A stretch of 40,066 bases of DNA from an uncultured Fidelibacterota bacterium (GTDB lineage Bacteria; Fidelibacterota; Marinisomatia; Marinisomatales; TCS55). Shown piece after piece: positions 27,433 to 34,882 of this stretch. The position numbers and the translations under genes were made by a program. The DNA lies in assembly GCA_913009735.1 (NCBI GenBank), contig CAJVYU010000016.1, positions 1 through 40,066 on the forward strand, given 5' to 3'. The notes under the pieces are model-generated. The model saw only the letters and a list, made by a program, of their open reading frames with translations. It searched no databases and was not told where the DNA came from. Each line of letters starts with the position of its first letter. Position 1 is the first letter of the stretch.

Positions 27433-27435
27433 ATG

Positions 27436-28320
27436 ATGAAATTATCAAAACGAATAACATTCACCACAATTCTTGGGTTTTTGCTCATTCTCAGTTGTAG
27501 CGGGAATCCCAAGTCTTTTAATATAAATAAATTTGAAAATCAACCTACAAAGGTAATTAAGAATTTCATCGAATCCGTGGGGATGGAGAATATTAAGACT
27601 TCTGCCTTTCAAAAAGTGGCTGTAATCGAATTTAACGTTGAATTTTTAATTGATCTTCCTAGTCAAGAGTGCATCCGCCTAACTGATAAAATGTATCAAA
27701 TCTTCACGGATTCAATAAAAAGCATTGTTGGTTGGGAAATAATAAGCAAAGACGCGATCACTAATAGTCCAATTTACAAACTTCTGAGAAAAAAACAGTG
27801 GGACCAACGGTTTAGAGAGCCTAAAGAAGAAAACGATCCAATTGAAGTTAAAAGCACTATTTATCCAGCTTCCCAATTAGCGATTCTACAACCGTCACAA
27901 GAGGGAGTAATGAGTCGTTATACGAATAAACTGATTGAAGCGGCTATTTTGGAAGATGTTGAAGCAAGTGCTATTCTAAAAGTTCATACCGTTGTGGATT
28001 ATTTTTATAAACGCGGGGAGGGGAAAATTGTTATTGCCCCTGTTGACGACCAAACATCCGTTGGTAGCAAGGTGGAGATATTAATCGATTACACAAAAAC
28101 ATCATCACCGGGAATGGGATATAAAGCGCGTGATAAAAAAGAGTATATTTACGCCTATAAAAATAAATTTTCCTTCATGCTGAAAGAGCCTTTAGTTGCA
28201 TATGAAAGTATTTCCGCAAAAAAGAGTACATTCGCTTTTGAAGAATTCAGCAATCAACTGGAAGCGATTTATAAAATTTATGTTGAAATGTTAGCTATAG
28301 AAATAGAGCAAAATTTATAG
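27436..28320 (+). CDS. Lipoprotein of unknown function
   Basis: 294 residues from the second of two adjacent ATGs (27433 or 27436; GGGA lies just upstream, better spaced from the second). The start KLSKRITFTTILGFLLILSC has a lipobox with the Cys at residue 21, followed by SGNPKSFN. The body is mixed alpha/beta with VAVIEFNVEFLIDLPSQECI, a segment resembling proteins that report a stress or surface response (VDYFYKRGEGKIVIAPVDDQ), and no transmembrane segment. I do not recognise a family. It stands alone between the HDOD operon and the tetR gene. Confidence 0.7.
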   Translation: MKLSKRITFTTILGFLLILSCSGNPKSFNINKFENQPTKVIKNFIESVGMENIKTSAFQKVAVIEFNVEFLIDLPSQECIRLTDKMYQIFTDSIKSIVGWEIISKDAITNSPIYKLLRKKQWDQRFREPKEENDPIEVKSTIYPASQLAILQPSQEGVMSRYTNKLIEAAILEDVEASAILKVHTVVDYFYKRGEGKIVIAPVDDQTSVGSKVEILIDYTKTSSPGMGYKARDKKEYIYAYKNKFSFMLKEPLVAYESISAKKSTFAFEEFSNQLEAIYKIYVEMLAIEIEQNL

Positions 28321-28465: not shown

Positions 28466-28480
28466 ATGACTAACGGTCAG
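28466..28480. promoter_or_regulatory. Probable TetR operator upstream of the tetR gene
   Basis: TGAC-TAACG-GTCA (28467-28479), a 4-bp inverted repeat with a 5-base centre, ends 20 bases before the ATG of the regulator. The same motif recurs at 29184-29198, which supports autoregulation. Confidence 0.7.
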
Positions 28481-28498
28481 CGCACATAGATCACACCC

Positions 28499-29131
28499 AT
28501 GGGAATAGTAGAAAGAAAAGCAAAAGAAAAGCAACAAAGGCGGGCAGATATCCTGCGCGCAGCTAAAGATGTCTTTTTTAAAAAGGGGCTTATGTCGGCT
28601 ACCATGGATGAAATTGCCGAAAAGTCCGAGCTGAGCAAGGGGACTCTCTATCTGTACTTCAAGAGTAAAGAGGAGTTATATCTTTCATTGCTGGATGAAG
28701 GTGATCGATTATTTATGGCTATGATGCAAAAGGAACTTTTGCCCACATTATCGGCAGAGGAGTTAATACGGAAAACCGCTTTTGTGTATTATAAATTTTA
28801 CCGGCAACACCCCGATTATTTTAATATTATGTTCTTTTTGCATCACGGGGATCTTGAAGAAAAGGTATCACCCGAATTCTATAAAACATGTATGTGTCAA
28901 GCCGAAGAAACATTGAAAATGATCGAAAGTATTATACAAAAAGGCATCGGCGAAGGAACCTTTCGCGAAGTAGATACTTGGAAAACGACATTAAACCTGT
29001 GGGCAACGGCAAATGGAATATTTTTTCTCTGTAAAGAAAAGGGGCATCATGATTTTTTAAAAGGAAACAACGAACAACAGCTTCTTGAACACGCATTAGA
29101 TATTTACCTGAAAGGAATAAAGAAAAAATAA
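28499..29131 (+). CDS. TetR/AcrR-family transcriptional regulator
   Basis: 210 residues. The N-terminal DNA-binding domain (residues 1-60) reads [52 protein letters not shown], with the helix-turn-helix at about 34-53. The C-terminal ligand domain is helical and hydrophobic with [20 protein letters not shown]. In this family the regulator normally represses an adjacent transporter until a small molecule binds. Operator-like repeats before its own start and before the MMPL gene fit that. There is no Shine-Dalgarno ahead of the ATG. A terminator follows at 29148-29174. Confidence 0.92.
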
Positions 29132-29147
29132 TATGTTTATAATCAGG

Positions 29148-29174
29148 AAAAGGCCCTTATGGGTCTATTTTTTT
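29148..29174 (+). terminator. Rho-independent terminator after tetR
   Basis: AGGCCC (29151-29156) pairs with GGGTCT (29161-29166, one G-U pair) around a TTAT loop, preceded by four A residues and followed by ATTTTTTT. It separates tetR transcription from the transporter operon. Confidence 0.8.
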
Positions 29175-29183
29175 CGTCTGCAA

Positions 29184-29215
29184 ATGACTAATGGTCATAA
29201 TACTAACGGGGGTCA
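29184..29215 (+). promoter_or_regulatory. TetR operator pair in the promoter of the MMPL operon
   Basis: A perfect 15-base palindrome ATGAC-TAATG-GTCAT lies at 29184-29198. A looser third copy, ACTAACGGGGGTCAT, follows at 29201-29215. CATAAT at 29196-29201 could be a -10 with TTCGTC 17 bases upstream, so a bound regulator would block it. The promoter call is weak; the repeat itself is clear. Confidence 0.7.
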
Positions 29216-29315
29216 TATTGCTCTGTCGTCGACGGAACCAGGCAGGGGCGATTTGATTCACACTGTTTTTCTTTGGCGAGGGAATGGTTAGTCAATTATA
29301 ATTAAGGAATATCAA

Positions 29316-31691
29316 ATGCTTAAACAATTTGCAAAACTCATCGTCAATTTCCCAAAAGCCACTCTAACGGCAGTTATGGTTTTGACGCTTTATATTGGTT
29401 TTGGAATCGGAAAGTTGGAAACCAGAAATAATTATGATTCCGACCTGCCAAAGAATGATCCCATCATTATTACTAATGACAGATTCAAAAAAGTTTTCGG
29501 CGATAAAGACGTTGTCATGATCGGAATCAGAACCGCGGATATCTTTAACCGACAAACACTTCAAAAAATAGCACTTATCTCCGAGGAATTGAAAAATGTC
29601 AAAGGAATAATCGAAGATCAGATTTTCAGCTTATCGACCCTTAATAATATTAAAGGTCGCGATTGGGGATTGGAAGTCGGGCCCTTTATGGAATTCGTCC
29701 CCAAAACCATCGATGAAATAAATCAACTTCGCAATGATGTTCAATCGAACGATTTAATCTACGGAAAGTTGGTGTCCAAGGACTTTAGCAGTACAGTTAT
29801 TACAGCCAATATAGAAAGAGGGTTCGATCAAGCCACTGTTTACAACCAAGTTCAAGAAATTGTAAAGAAATATGAAGGCCCCGAACAGATTTATCCTAAC
29901 GGTGAGCCTATTATGCAGCAAGAAATAGATTTGGGAATCCAGCGGGATGTTTCCATTTTGCTGCCTTTTGCTCTCATCTTGGTTTTGATAGGGTTCTTGA
30001 TCTCATTTCGAAGTATTCGCGGTGTTTTGTTACCATTTTCAGTCGTAATACTCAGCATTATCTGGACCATGGGAATTATGGGGCACATAGGATTAAAAAT
30101 GACTGTTGTATCTTCGGCTCTTCCCATGGTGATGGTGGCGGTTGCCAGTTCCTATGGAATCCATGTACTGCACCGCTATTATGAGGAAATTCTCCATAAG
30201 TCAATAGCCGAAGCTGTCTCAGAAACGATTATTACCATGACGCCACCGCTATTAATGACAGGAATAACATCTGCGGCAGGATCGGCTACATTAGCCGTTT
30301 TTAAAATTATGTCCATCCGGGAATTTGGAATTATCACCGCCATAGGAATTCTATCTGCTCTTTTCCTTTCTACCATTGTTCCCCCGGCACTATTAATGTT
30401 ATTGAAAAAACCCTCTAAAAAATATAAGAAAGCCAAAAAACCTATGGGCAATAGACTGATGACCTCCTTCGCCCTTCTAACGCTGAGGAAACCCGGTTTC
30501 ATCACAGCCACAACCTTGGTTATTATTGCAATCTCAATCGTTGGAATCACCCGGATTCAAATCGGCAGTGACTTTACAAACATGTTCCCCGATGGTCATC
30601 GGGTAAAACAGTCTTTTAATATGTTCAATGAATATTTGGGTGGAGCCAGATATTTCAATATTATGATCACCGGAAAAGAGCCGGACACCATTACCGACCC
30701 CGCTTTACTCATGCAGATTGATGACTTCCAGAGATATGTCGAAGGGTTGGAAGGGGTCGGTTATACCAATTCCTTTGCAGATATTATTAAACGAATCAAT
30801 CGCGTCATGAACAATGATGACGTCAAATATGAGTCAATCCCAAATTCGCAGGCACTGATTTCCCAGTACCTGCTTCTTTATTCAATGTCGGGTGATCCCG
30901 GCGACTTCGAAGATATTGTGGATTATGATTATCAGCGTGCCAAGATCCGGGTCATGATCCAAACGTCGAAACAGGATGCTCATAAACGGCTCTATCGAGA
31001 TATGCTCTCTTATGCCAAAACGCATTTTGATTCCGGCGTGGAAATTGAGTTCGGCGGATCAATAATGTCCTGGTTAGCACAGGTTCGATATATCGCCATC
31101 GGGGAAATTCAGAACATAATTACAGCAATCGTTATTATTTTTCTATTTTGTCTGGTCGTGTTTCGATCACTGTCCGGTGGATTACTCAACATCGTTCCGC
31201 TTTCAATCGCGTCAATGATAACGTTTGGTCTAATGGGATACCTCGAAATTCGTTTGGAAATGGGAACGGCAATTATTACTGCCATTGCGGTGGGCGTTGG
31301 GGTTGATTTTGCCATTCACTTTATTAGTCGCTACAGGGAAGAATTTCAGAAAACCGGAGATGTGGAAAAAACAACCGTCATAACGCTCAACACGGCCGGG
31401 GAAGCAATTATTTTGGATATGTTTTCGAATGTGCTCGGTTTTTCTGTGTTAATCTTCTCCGGGTTCACACCGGTTCAGAACTTCGGCTGGCTGGTTTCAC
31501 TCACCATGATTACGAGCGGTTTCGGATCGTTGGTTTTGCTTCCTCCATTGCTTGCTTTTTTCAAACCCGGTTTCATTTGGAAAAAACAGAATATTGCTGC
31601 CAGATCAAACACCGTGCTTTCTATCGGGGAGGAGCCGGTTTCCGTTAATGTGAATGAAGAAAGCAACAAAAAGATGATGGAGCTTGAGTAG
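29316..31691 (+). CDS. MMPL/RND-superfamily transporter
   Basis: 791 residues, the usual size for this family. One N-terminal helix, an extracytoplasmic loop (residues 35-210, starting LETRNNYDSDLPKNDPI), five helices (about 215-360), then the same pattern repeated: helix near 392, loop 410-590, helices 595-770. The sterol-sensing-type core appears in both halves (MVMVAVASSYGIHVLHRYYE and AIAVGVGVDFAIHFISRYRE, the second with a proton-relay-like Asp). Close relatives (MmpL, HpnN) move lipids or hopanoids from the inner membrane. Proton-driven export of a hydrophobic compound is the likely job. AAGGA stands 8 bases from the ATG. First gene of a TetR-controlled operon with LolA-like, SDR and DUF1302-like genes. 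Confidence 0.92.
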   Translation: MLKQFAKLIVNFPKATLTAVMVLTLYIGFGIGKLETRNNYDSDLPKNDPIIITNDRFKKVFGDKDVVMIGIRTADIFNRQTLQKIALISEELKNVKGIIEDQIFSLSTLNNIKGRDWGLEVGPFMEFVPKTIDEINQLRNDVQSNDLIYGKLVSKDFSSTVITANIERGFDQATVYNQVQEIVKKYEGPEQIYPNGEPIMQQEIDLGIQRDVSILLPFALILVLIGFLISFRSIRGVLLPFSVVILSIIWTMGIMGHIGLKMTVVSSALPMVMVAVASSYGIHVLHRYYEEILHKSIAEAVSETIITMTPPLLMTGITSAAGSATLAVFKIMSIREFGIITAIGILSALFLSTIVPPALLMLLKKPSKKYKKAKKPMGNRLMTSFALLTLRKPGFITATTLVIIAISIVGITRIQIGSDFTNMFPDGHRVKQSFNMFNEYLGGARYFNIMITGKEPDTITDPALLMQIDDFQRYVEGLEGVGYTNSFADIIKRINRVMNNDDVKYESIPNSQALISQYLLLYSMSGDPGDFEDIVDYDYQRAKIRVMIQTSKQDAHKRLYRDMLSYAKTHFDSGVEIEFGGSIMSWLAQVRYIAIGEIQNIITAIVIIFLFCLVVFRSLSGGLLNIVPLSIASMITFGLMGYLEIRLEMGTAIITAIAVGVGVDFAIHFISRYREEFQKTGDVEKTTVITLNTAGEAIILDMFSNVLGFSVLIFSGFTPVQNFGWLVSLTMITSGFGSLVLLPPLLAFFKPGFIWKKQNIAARSNTVLSIGEEPVSVNVNEESNKKMMELE

Positions 31692-31723
31692 AAAGATATT
31701 TTCATAAATATAAAGGAAAAACA

Positions 31724-32512
31724 ATGAAAAGGTTTACTATTTTACTAACAACAGCTGTGATTCTGTCTCTCGGGTTTAGCTTTGGGAAAAGTCTGACTGC
31801 CCGTGAAATTATGGAACAAAATGAGCAGATGATGAACACCCGGGACGAGCGATCCGATTTGACCATGAAACTAATTAACAAGCGGGGAAAAGAACGGAAA
31901 CGCCAAGTGGTGCTATATTCAAAAACAGATAACCAGAATAATGATAAAACACTCATTCGATTCCAGGCGCCGGCTGATGTGAAGGGTGTGGGTTTATTAT
32001 CTATTGAAGAGGGTGGACAGAAAAATCAATGGTTATATTTGCCCGCTTTGAAACGAGTGCGAAGAATTTCATCCAGTGAAAAAACGGATAGTTTTATGGG
32101 ATCTGACTTTTCTTACGAAGATATTGAACAAAATGACCTGAATAATTATAAGTATTCTTTGCTGCGGGAAGAAAATTTCGACGGTGTTATGTGTTATGTC
32201 ATCCGGTCCATACCCGTTGATGAACAAGTAAAGCAAGAAACGGCCTATAGTAAATCTGATGTTTGGGTTCGTAAGGATAATTACATATCCATCAAAGTTA
32301 ATTTCTACAACAAAAAGGCGGATCTTATAAAAATTATGAATTCCAACGATATCCGGCCGGTAGAAGGTACCGATAAATGGCGCGCTCATTTTATTGAAAT
32401 GCAAAATGTGAACACAGGGCATCGTACTGAACTTCTCTATAAGAATATTATAATCAACCAGGGTGTCGCTGACAAATACTTTACCCAGAGATATCTTGAA
32501 AGAGGGAGATAA
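31724..32512 (+). CDS. LolA-like outer membrane lipoprotein-sorting family protein
   Basis: 262 residues with a signal peptide (MKRFTILLTTAVILSLGFSF). TAREIMEQNEQMMNTRDERS starts the family domain. LIRFQAPADVKGVGLLSIEE and QWLYLPALKRVRRISSSEKT, then SFMGSDFSYEDIE, are the signature blocks of the LolA_like group that accompanies MMPL transporters. The half-barrel fold should bind lipid chains in the periplasm. No Cys for lipidation is present near the N-terminus. AAGGA stands before the ATG, 32 bases after the transporter stop. It is likely the periplasmic carrier between the transporter and the barrel protein. Confidence 0.9.
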   Translation: MKRFTILLTTAVILSLGFSFGKSLTAREIMEQNEQMMNTRDERSDLTMKLINKRGKERKRQVVLYSKTDNQNNDKTLIRFQAPADVKGVGLLSIEEGGQKNQWLYLPALKRVRRISSSEKTDSFMGSDFSYEDIEQNDLNNYKYSLLREENFDGVMCYVIRSIPVDEQVKQETAYSKSDVWVRKDNYISIKVNFYNKKADLIKIMNSNDIRPVEGTDKWRAHFIEMQNVNTGHRTELLYKNIIINQGVADKYFTQRYLERGR

Positions 32513-32587
32513 CTTTGTACTCATGGATGAAAATTTGTAGAATGCTACCGGTTTTAGAGCCAATACTATTTTTAAAGAGGAAACAAA

Positions 32588-33379
32588 ATGAGTGAAAATC
32601 AAACGGTATTAATTACAGGCGCTAGTGGCGGAATTGGTCTGGAATTCGCAAAAATATTCTTTTCAAAAGGATATAATCTTATCCTGATTAGCCGGGATCG
32701 ACAAAAACTTCAGGAAGTAAAAGAATCTCTTACGAATGGAAGTTCTCAATCAATTGCCATTATTCCATGTGATTTATCACAGGATAAGTCCGCTCAAAAT
32801 CTTTACAACCAGTGTAAGGCAGATGAATTAGCTCCTGATATTCTCGTGAATAATGCCGGTTTCGGAATGCATGGAGAACATGTTGATCTCTCAGTCTCTG
32901 AAGTTGAGAATATGATTAATCTGAATATTCTTTCTTTAACTTCGCTCTGCGGTCTTTTTGGTCGTGACATGAAGAAGAGAAAATCAGGTTTTATTTTAAA
33001 TGTGGCTTCAACGGGAGCCTACCAACCCACGCCGTACCACGGTGCTTACGCAGCAACAAAAAGCTATGTCCTCAACTTTTCAGAAGCCCTGGCAAAAGAA
33101 TTAGAAGATTATGGTGTAACGGTAACCTGCCTCTCTCCCGGAGCTACAGATACGGACTTTTTCATACGGTCCGGAATCGGGGACGTTATGACCGGATTTT
33201 TTGCCAAGAAAAGAAGAATGGATGCAAAAAAAGTTGCTGAATTAGGTGTGTCGGCACTCTTTTCAAAAAAGCTTTCGACTATTGCGGGACTAACAAATAA
33301 AATATTAGCGTGGTCAAACCGTTTTGCCCCCAGAGCGATGGTCGCCGGTCTTTCCAAAATATTAATGAAAAATCCATGA
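32588..33379 (+). CDS. Short-chain dehydrogenase/reductase
   Basis: 263 residues. Classical SDR: TGASGGIG at 10-17 for NAD(P) binding, DLS at 62-64, NNAGFGMHG at 88-96, Asn113, Ser141 in NVASTGAYQP, and the Tyr154/Lys158 pair in HGAYAATKSY. The C-terminal part (ATDTDFFIRSGIGDVMTGFF, APRAMVAGLSKIL) resembles lipid-active SDRs such as DltE/YdfG-like members, but substrate cannot be fixed. AGAGGAAAC precedes the ATG. Its place inside the transport operon suggests it modifies the transported molecule. Confidence 0.9.
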   Translation: MSENQTVLITGASGGIGLEFAKIFFSKGYNLILISRDRQKLQEVKESLTNGSSQSIAIIPCDLSQDKSAQNLYNQCKADELAPDILVNNAGFGMHGEHVDLSVSEVENMINLNILSLTSLCGLFGRDMKKRKSGFILNVASTGAYQPTPYHGAYAATKSYVLNFSEALAKELEDYGVTVTCLSPGATDTDFFIRSGIGDVMTGFFAKKRRMDAKKVAELGVSALFSKKLSTIAGLTNKILAWSNRFAPRAMVAGLSKILMKNP

Positions 33380-33392
33380 GTCTGTTCCGTAA

Positions 33393-33540
33393 AGGGGTTA
33401 AAACCCCTGAATTTTCTTTTTTGAACCATATCCCCGCCCTGAAGGACGGGGCAAGTGATTTGTTCCGGGTTACTGTTACAGATAATTACCCCGACATTTA
33501 TGTCGGGGGTAATAACACCAAAACAAAAGGCATTTATGCC
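33393..33540. repeat. Cluster of four small palindromes (REP-like)
   Basis: AGGGGTT/AACCCCT (33393-33408), CCCCGCCCT/AGGACGGGG (33432-33451), TTACCCCGACA/TGTCGGGG-TAA (33486-33512) and GGCA/TGCC (33529-33540) follow one another between the SDR gene and the barrel gene. The last two share a TTTA loop. Together they would fold into a row of hairpins in the operon mRNA. Not typical terminators, because no U run follows. Confidence 0.75.
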
Positions 33541-33619
33541 AATTTGACCTTTTCGGGGTGGGCTCATCCATAACCCTGTACCGAAATACAAGGCCACTTT
33601 TATTTAGGAGACTTGGTTA

Positions 33620-34882
33620 ATGCAAAGAATAACACAAGTATTATTGTTAACAATGTTAAATGGTTTATTGGCCCAGGTAGAAATTGATGGTTATGTAAAA
33701 AATTATAATGCCATTCGCTTAAACAAAGACTACGATTATCTAATTTTAAGAAACAGGCTTCGTTTGAATCTCAATTATTTACCTTCAGAATATGCTTTGG
33801 GTTATGCATCGTTCGATGTAAAAAATGACCACATGGGTGACCAAAACGATCTTGAGCTAAATCTGCGTGAGATGTACATCGATCTGTATTTTGATCATTA
33901 TGACCTTCGAATTGGAAAACAGCAAATTGTCTGGGGCAAGGCAGACGGGTTGTTCATTACCGATATTATTAATCCCCTTAATCTAAGGGAATTTATCCTG
34001 GCGGATTTCGAGGATATCCGAATGGGAATAAATTCCATTAAAGTACAGGCATATTTCGGGAACAGTCGGTTGGAAAGTATCTGGATACCTCAATTTGTTC
34101 CTGCCAAATTTTCGGAGCCGGGAGAGGCCTGGGCGTTTTATACTCCTATCGATGAAATTGCCAAATCGATTCCGGATACATTAATCATGATATATAATAT
34201 TACAGAACCGGAAAAGCGGCTAAATAATTCTGAATATGGATTCCGGTATTCAACACATTTTAAAGGAATAGACCTGGCGCTGTCTTATTTCTACACTTGG
34301 GACGATTATCCGGTTTTCCGGCAGTATTTTCAACTAACCAATAATCCATTGACGCCATTTAGCGTTACGATTAAACCTGAATATGATCGATTAACGGTAT
34401 TGGGAGGAACGTTCGCCTCAACAATCGGACCCCTGGTAATTCGTGGCGAAGGTGCTTTGTATCAAAAGAGAAATTTTTATACGGAAAATGCTGCGGATGG
34501 CGATCGCGTCGTACAAAAAGATTTTCTAAATTACATGATTGGTGGAGAAATCTCCCCCGGGAAAACATTCATCAGCGGGCAATTTATTCAGGAAATAATT
34601 TTGGATTATGATGATCTGGTGGTTAATGATAAAATCGTCAACACGGGGACATTATTACTTTCAGATACTTTCGTAAATGAAACCATTAAGCCGGAAATAT
34701 TTGTCATCTATAATTTCACTCACGAAGATTATTGGAACCGATTCAGTATAAAGTATTACCCTGTGGATGGCGTCGAAATCATTCTTGCGGCGGATATTTT
34801 GGGCGGTAAAAAAGACAATAAATTATTCAGCCAGTTTGACGATAATGATAATGTTTATATAAAATTGAAGTATAGTTTTTAA
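33620..34882 (+). CDS. DUF1302-like outer-membrane beta-barrel protein
   Basis: 420 residues with a short signal peptide (MQRITQVLLLTMLNGLLAQ). LRNRLRLNLNYLP and LREMYIDLYFDHYDLRIGKQ lead into QQIVWGKADGLFITDIINPL and NLREFILADFEDIRMGINSI. The IGKQ-xVWGxxDG...INPxxLRE pattern is characteristic of DUF1302-type barrels. The end NVYIKLKYSF has the terminal Phe expected of an outer-membrane protein. AGGAG stands 9 bases before the ATG. Relatives occur next to MMPL transporters and LolA-like or DUF1329 proteins, so an outer-membrane exit or entry point for the transported lipid is a fair inference. Last gene of the operon; convergent with the next. Confidence 0.82.
   Translation: MQRITQVLLLTMLNGLLAQVEIDGYVKNYNAIRLNKDYDYLILRNRLRLNLNYLPSEYALGYASFDVKNDHMGDQNDLELNLREMYIDLYFDHYDLRIGKQQIVWGKADGLFITDIINPLNLREFILADFEDIRMGINSIKVQAYFGNSRLESIWIPQFVPAKFSEPGEAWAFYTPIDEIAKSIPDTLIMIYNITEPEKRLNNSEYGFRYSTHFKGIDLALSYFYTWDDYPVFRQYFQLTNNPLTPFSVTIKPEYDRLTVLGGTFASTIGPLVIRGEGALYQKRNFYTENAADGDRVVQKDFLNYMIGGEISPGKTFISGQFIQEIILDYDDLVVNDKIVNTGTLLLSDTFVNETIKPEIFVIYNFTHEDYWNRFSIKYYPVDGVEIILAADILGGKKDNKLFSQFDDNDNVYIKLKYSF

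Follow-up and report, generated by a model that had tools for sequence, protein, structure and literature searches.

A regulator, an inner-membrane pump, a periplasmic carrier, an oxidoreductase and an outer-membrane barrel are encoded one after another at a single bacterial locus, which raises the question of what these proteins move across the envelope and in which direction. To our knowledge, the way in which MMPL pumps of diderm bacteria convey lipids across the periplasm and the outer membrane has largely yet to be explained. The stretch analysed here (the window, 40,066 nucleotides) corresponds to contig C16 in a Neomarinimicrobiota MAG of 3.42 Mb that is 91% complete. We propose, with a probability of roughly 0.6, that the locus encodes a substrate-inducible trans-envelope exporter of an acyl-chain amphiphile, the window's own cargo being predicted from its relatives.

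Gene content and regulation of the locus

Open reading frames checked against Pfam profiles give the plus-strand order tetR, MMPL/RND transporter, PF17131 LolA-like carrier, SDR and DUF1302 barrel, and the Pfam matches bear out the coordinates, strand and families that an earlier note on this DNA had assigned to the five frames. Three same-phylum genomes with an orthologue (G001, of the same genus, G060 and G134) make up, with the window, four TetR-type loci. The features are as follows.

28467..28479, no strand: putative operator before tetR, TGACTAACGGTCA, a TGAC-N5-GTCA palindrome; same palindrome in G001 and G134, one mismatch in G060
28499..29131, plus strand: TetR-family regulator, 210 aa (TetR_N, E 1.9e-15)
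29151..29173, plus strand: terminator-like hairpin with T run after tetR (consensus scan)
29185..29197, no strand: putative second operator, TGACTAATGGTCA, before the MMPL gene; exact TGAC-N5-GTCA in 4/4 TetR-type loci
29202..29215, no strand: possible degenerate further operator half-site, ACTAACGGGGGTCA (by eye only)
29316..31691, plus strand: MMPL-family RND transporter, HAE3-like, 791 aa (PF03176, E 3.6e-38)
31724..32512, plus strand: LolA-like periplasmic carrier, 262 aa, signal peptide (PF17131, E 4.8e-65)
32588..33379, plus strand: classical SDR oxidoreductase, accessory, 263 aa (adh_short, E 1.4e-45)
33375..33568, no strand: dispersed structured repeat that lies between the SDR and barrel genes and has terminal inverted repeats (copies at 19 genomic places, 73-93%)
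33620..34882, plus strand: DUF1302-family outer-membrane beta-barrel, 420 aa, signal peptide (PF06980, E 1.5e-13)

TetR orthologues that are 87, 70 and 47% identical head the same genes in the three relatives. The TGAC-N5-GTCA palindrome precedes both tetR and the MMPL gene in all four loci, with seven of the eight sites exact and the eighth carrying one mismatch, and the second site always lies 53-54 nt past the tetR stop. No other exact TGAC-N5-GTCA occurs in the 91 kb of the window and three loci together, where about 1.2 would be expected in all, and the only two exact instances of TGACTAANGGTCA in the 3.42-Mb genome are at this locus. A sequence resembling ACTAACGGGGGTCA is found by eye in G001 and G060 and was not seen in G134. 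Because the palindrome stands before both genes in all four loci, TetR probably governs itself and the pump, and the sequence pattern is that of a dedicated, autoregulated switch. These conserved operators are new relative to the earlier note.

The description of the locus as one operon holds for shared strand and gene order. Since the terminator-like hairpin with its T run (a stem and T run are visible by eye in the three relatives as well) and the second operator come after tetR, this gene is probably a transcription unit of its own. Between the SDR and DUF1302 genes lies a 240-nt gap holding the dispersed repeat, so that the MMPL promoter may or may not drive the barrel gene. A promoter scan gave matches near chance level; the best-looking promoter before the MMPL gene was discounted as too near the start codon. 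An Rfam search of the operon gave no match. Just upstream of tetR (27433-28320) we also note an orphan predicted lipoprotein of 295 aa with an LSCSG lipobox and no Pfam family.

The repeat is about 190 nt long with termini ATGAGTC...GGCTCAT and internal hairpins (by alignment and folding), it has no match in Rfam, and its 19 genomic copies are full or partial. A few of its pairs change on both sides in the alignment. It is mobile-looking, and copies at L127, L130, L131 and L132 seem to carry a nested insert of about 45 nt, GGGATTCCCGCCTGCCCCATTTGAATAATATTGTAGGGGGCGGACAGG-like, in one hairpin loop. The SDR takes its stop codon from the left end of the repeat. Truncation of the SDR by the repeat is ruled out by end-to-end alignment with homologues, and the enzyme is intact, with TGxxxGxG, NNAG, S and YxxxK present.

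The SDR had been taken as an integral member of the pathway, a view the relatives contradict. In G001 the barrel gene directly follows the LolA-like gene, and G060 has at the same place a different SDR (30% identity, versus 66-74% for the neighbouring genes) along with a small extra OMP gene. After its LolA-like gene, G134 has neither a same-strand SDR nor a DUF1302 gene. The more similar SDRs (38-43%) are not located at MMPL-LolA-DUF1302 operons in the four loci examined. The absence in G001 and the unrelated SDR in G060 exclude the enzyme as a core part, and by this sequence comparison it is an accessory gene, perhaps recruited twice independently. Recruitment at the same place is suggestive, though not proof, of a role in the pathway.

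A conserved pump, carrier and barrel

Forty regions around LolA-like genes were fetched, 35 of them from relatives and mostly best matches to the window's LolA-like protein. In 27 of these 35 loci the LolA-like gene has MMPL and DUF1302 genes on its own strand no more than 3 kb away, a fraction biased by choosing loci for LolA-like similarity; of the remaining eight, several stop at a contig edge and most lack just one partner. This co-conservation is far beyond chance, and the conserved unit is MMPL–LolA-like–DUF1302. The proposal that the inner-membrane MMPL, the LolA-fold carrier and the outer-membrane barrel belong together is thus supported, the genes not being scattered in relatives, and of the four-gene order first proposed the SDR alone drops out, absent or replaced.

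The trio has two paralogous copies elsewhere in the same genome (C17 and C85), of which the C17 copy starts with another TetR. One such own-genome paralogue operon (L056 9584-15014) reads TetR-MMPL-MMPL-LolA-DUF1302, with tandem MMPL genes. Orthologous TetR-type loci occur in 4/245 phylum genomes searched. The trio is present in Marinoscillum and Cytophagales (Bacteroidota); Prevotella, of the same phylum, has TetR-ABC-ABC-MMPL-LolA-DUF1302, and Haliovirga (Fusobacteriota) has TetR, radical SAM, KAS III, DUF1302, MMPL and LolA-like genes. The LolA-like protein in place of DUF1329, once regarded as a local peculiarity, is the common form in the phylum and is found in Bacteroidota, Fusobacteriota and Pseudomonadota too; the kinship to DUF1302/DUF1329/MMPL cassettes is nonetheless real. 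Many relatives (L064, L067-L073) show MMPL-LolA-DUF1302-LolA, with LolA-like genes on both sides of DUF1302, an arrangement that suggests two carriers per pathway.

The MMPL protein has orthologues at 77, 74 and 56% identity in the three same-phylum relatives. Its best family is HAE3 (TIGR00921), although its 281.9 bits fall under the cut-off of 351.9. The scores for HpnN (113.7 vs 751.85 bits) and the sterol transporter BstA (59.4 vs 1400 bits) are far below the NCBIfam equivalog cut-offs, which rejects a sterol/hopanoid transporter identity and leaves the sterol-like cargo of the earlier note unsupported. An MMPL tree places the four TetR-type loci as the sister group of Cytophagales ES-bin-26 together with Marinoscillum furvescens, the six having an SH-aLRT of 100, and among 395 genomes of the Marinoscillum class no further member of this clade was found beyond Marinoscillum itself.

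The LolA-like protein scores 219.1 bits against a Pfam gathering cut-off of 30 for PF17131, matches DUF1329 only partially (E 1.1e-9) and has no match to canonical LolA (PF03548). Both it and the barrel have signal-peptide-like N-terminal segments by eye. Its model (pLDDT 93.3) aligns with P. gingivalis LolA3 (PDB 9tp6) at TM 0.84/0.92, with 37-38% of the structurally aligned residues identical; V. parahaemolyticus 3bk5 and D. piger 4z48 match as well, with TM 0.82-0.84 across these and LolA3. Against true LolA the TM is about 0.4, and LppX and LprG are weak fold matches. The LolA3 crystal structure has a hydrophobic groove (PMC13103446), and a similar groove is predicted for the window's carrier by homology to it. 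The barrel (51.1 bits, PF06980 gathering cut-off 23.2) is modelled at pLDDT 87.6 with about 18-20 strands; its fold is similar, at moderate TM, to porins, MOMP and AlgE, and not to FadL. A PDB sequence search with its profile gave no match.

The family name 'outer membrane lipoprotein-sorting protein' raises the alternative that the carrier is a branch of lipoprotein sorting, perhaps serving the barrel. PF03548 LolA went undetected in the genome (91% complete). Of its six PF17131 genes, three sit, on inspection of the sequence, with FtsX/LolCE-like ABC permeases (L058 16019-18630, L059 8459-12438 and L060); because no PF03548 LolA is detectable, these permease-linked genes may be the lipoprotein-sorting systems of the lineage, and PF17131 may do such work elsewhere in the cell. 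The other three are in MMPL-DUF1302 operons (C16, C17, C85), and the window copy stands beside an MMPL gene rather than an ABC permease. In P. gingivalis, LolA3, which belongs to this family, shows only very weak binding to LolB and is missing the conserved LolA arginine (PMC13103446), and deletion of LolA3 in F. johnsoniae gave no phenotype (PMC11885536). A sorting role at this locus is thus very improbable. Proteins bearing this family name are often MMPL partners and unlikely to be lipoprotein carriers, and the name can mislead annotation.

Cargo and direction of transport

The best clue to the type of cargo comes from lipopeptide-cluster relatives, which stand at 30-53% identity in different contexts. 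Cytophagales ES-bin-26, the closest relative outside the phylum (53% identity), has the joined order FAAL-ACAD-ACP-NRPS(C-A-PCP-TE)-SRPBCC-MMPL-LolA-DUF1302-START-PPTase, its MMPL gene being split over two contigs with a 229-bp overlap (99%). In Marinoscillum an acyltransferase gene precedes MMPL. The gene after the NRPS in A. baumannii encodes SRPBCC, MMPL and LolA_like domains in one chain, and after it come genes for a 424-aa barrel, an epimerase-hydrolase and a PPTase; the barrel has no Pfam match of its own but matches the Cytophagales DUF1302 protein (E 9e-20). By size and order we equate these genes with A1S_0116-0119 as described in PMC5376624. The A1S_0112-0119 operon is required for lipopeptide-like acinetin 505, which carries a C15 acyl chain and was detected in the supernatant (PMC5376624); surface motility depends on A1S_0116 (PMC7997844). 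The relatives thereby tie the trio to acyl and lipopeptide molecules, in keeping with the lipid-type cargo first proposed.

Direction of transport, hand-over between the parts, induction by the cargo and the cargo class of the window would then be as follows. TetR would sit on the palindromic operators before its own gene and the MMPL gene, as site conservation and TetR family behaviour suggest, and would release them, again by family behaviour, on binding the cargo or a related molecule. The MMPL protein, going by its family, would lift the molecule from the inner membrane, driven by the proton gradient; the half-barrel groove of the LolA-like protein, whose fold the model shows, would shield the molecule across the periplasm; and the barrel would pass it through, or insert it into, the outer membrane. 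More weakly, the SDR, as an optional added enzyme, might reduce a carbonyl on the cargo or a related compound.

Several observations weigh against export. Among the window ORFs, covering about 28 kb upstream and about 5 kb downstream of the operon, there are no FAAL, ACP, NRPS or PPTase genes and no lipid-making genes were seen nearby, so the cargo could come from outside. The modelled barrel is like ordinary porins and AlgE, so that a lipid path is not evident in it; the Acinetobacter MMPL shares only some 30% identity with that of the window, and G134 lacks DUF1302 at the locus.

A detoxification pump would be the same machine with a different source of cargo: TetR would sense a foreign hydrophobic compound (a terpene, hydrocarbon or free fatty acid), the trio would expel it and the SDR would reduce reactive carbonyls. 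The dedicated operators, the lack of biosynthetic genes nearby and the patchy distribution among phylum genomes agree with this, as does the lower monoterpene tolerance after AmeABCD deletion (PMC6394551). The nearest Bacteroidota relatives, however, lie beside NRPS/FAAL or acyltransferase genes, which points to an endogenous product, and we consider detoxification distinctly less probable than export.

Uptake would run the other way, the barrel admitting a hydrophobic nutrient such as an alkane or fatty acid, the LolA-like protein carrying it inward and MMPL and SDR aiding its use. T. oleivorans TOL_3187 and the porin encoded beside it increase on C28 alkane (PMC6304351). AmeABCD and TOL_3187-3188 belong to hydrocarbon users, where export is no more plausible than import or tolerance, and DUF1302/DUF1329/MMPL cassettes occur on catabolic plasmids. 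RND/MMPL transporters of established direction, however, are exporters, no catabolic genes lie near the window and the lipopeptide-cluster relatives imply export, which makes uptake improbable here.

Returning to export, we suggest tentatively, at somewhat less than even odds, that MMPL-PF17131-DUF1302 is an unnamed, widespread trans-envelope exporter of acylated natural products or lipids that is distinct from the Lol pathway and occurs in at least Neomarinimicrobiota, Bacteroidota, Fusobacteriota and Pseudomonadota, with the window operon as a TetR-switched member. If true, this would account for the orphan 'LolA3' proteins and for how acinetin 505 is exported. The trio, found in several phyla and in the lipopeptide clusters of relatives, is a specific candidate for such a machine, and in one case its product, acinetin 505, is known; cargo and direction can therefore be tested by gene removal in laboratory strains that already exist.

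Comparison with known systems

A literature search for earlier accounts of the trio, mostly without subscription papers, turned up the Ame, TOL_3187 and A1S_0116 cases only. Acinetobacter A1S_0116/A1S_0117 resembles the window in having MMPL and LolA-like parts, there fused, followed by a DUF1302-like barrel. The N-terminal SRPBCC domain, the fusion, the NRPS genes and quorum-sensing control belong to A1S_0112-0119 only; the window shares its adjacent MMPL, LolA-like and barrel genes but not the neighbouring FAAL, ACP, NRPS and PPTase genes. Thalassolituus TOL_3187-3188 (PMC6304351), by its description, similarly combines MMPL and a LolA-like domain with an adjacent predicted porin, and differs in that the first two are fused and induced by C28 alkane. 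P. gingivalis LolA3 (PDB 9tp6) shares the PF17131-type protein. The mycobacterial MmpL lipid exporters with LppX/LprG, which likewise pair an MMPL pump with a lipid carrier of LolA-like fold, are an analogy only, with another envelope and no DUF1302 barrel.

The Castellaniella AmeABCD monoterpene efflux cassette (PMC6394551) shares with the window an HAE3-type RND pump, a DUF1302 barrel and a periplasmic protein of the LolA superfamily. It alone has a DUF1329 protein and the YCF48-like AmeC; the window has PF17131 instead, and no YCF48-like gene lies between tetR and the barrel. Membership in AmeABCD itself is rejected, since Ame-type MMPLs (represented in the tree by Aromatoleum and Methylibium) form a separate clade and the window MMPL groups with Cytophagales and Marinoscillum. 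The window operon is thus a new variant of the HAE3-RND/DUF1302 cassettes, AmeABCD-like, and not a separate kind.
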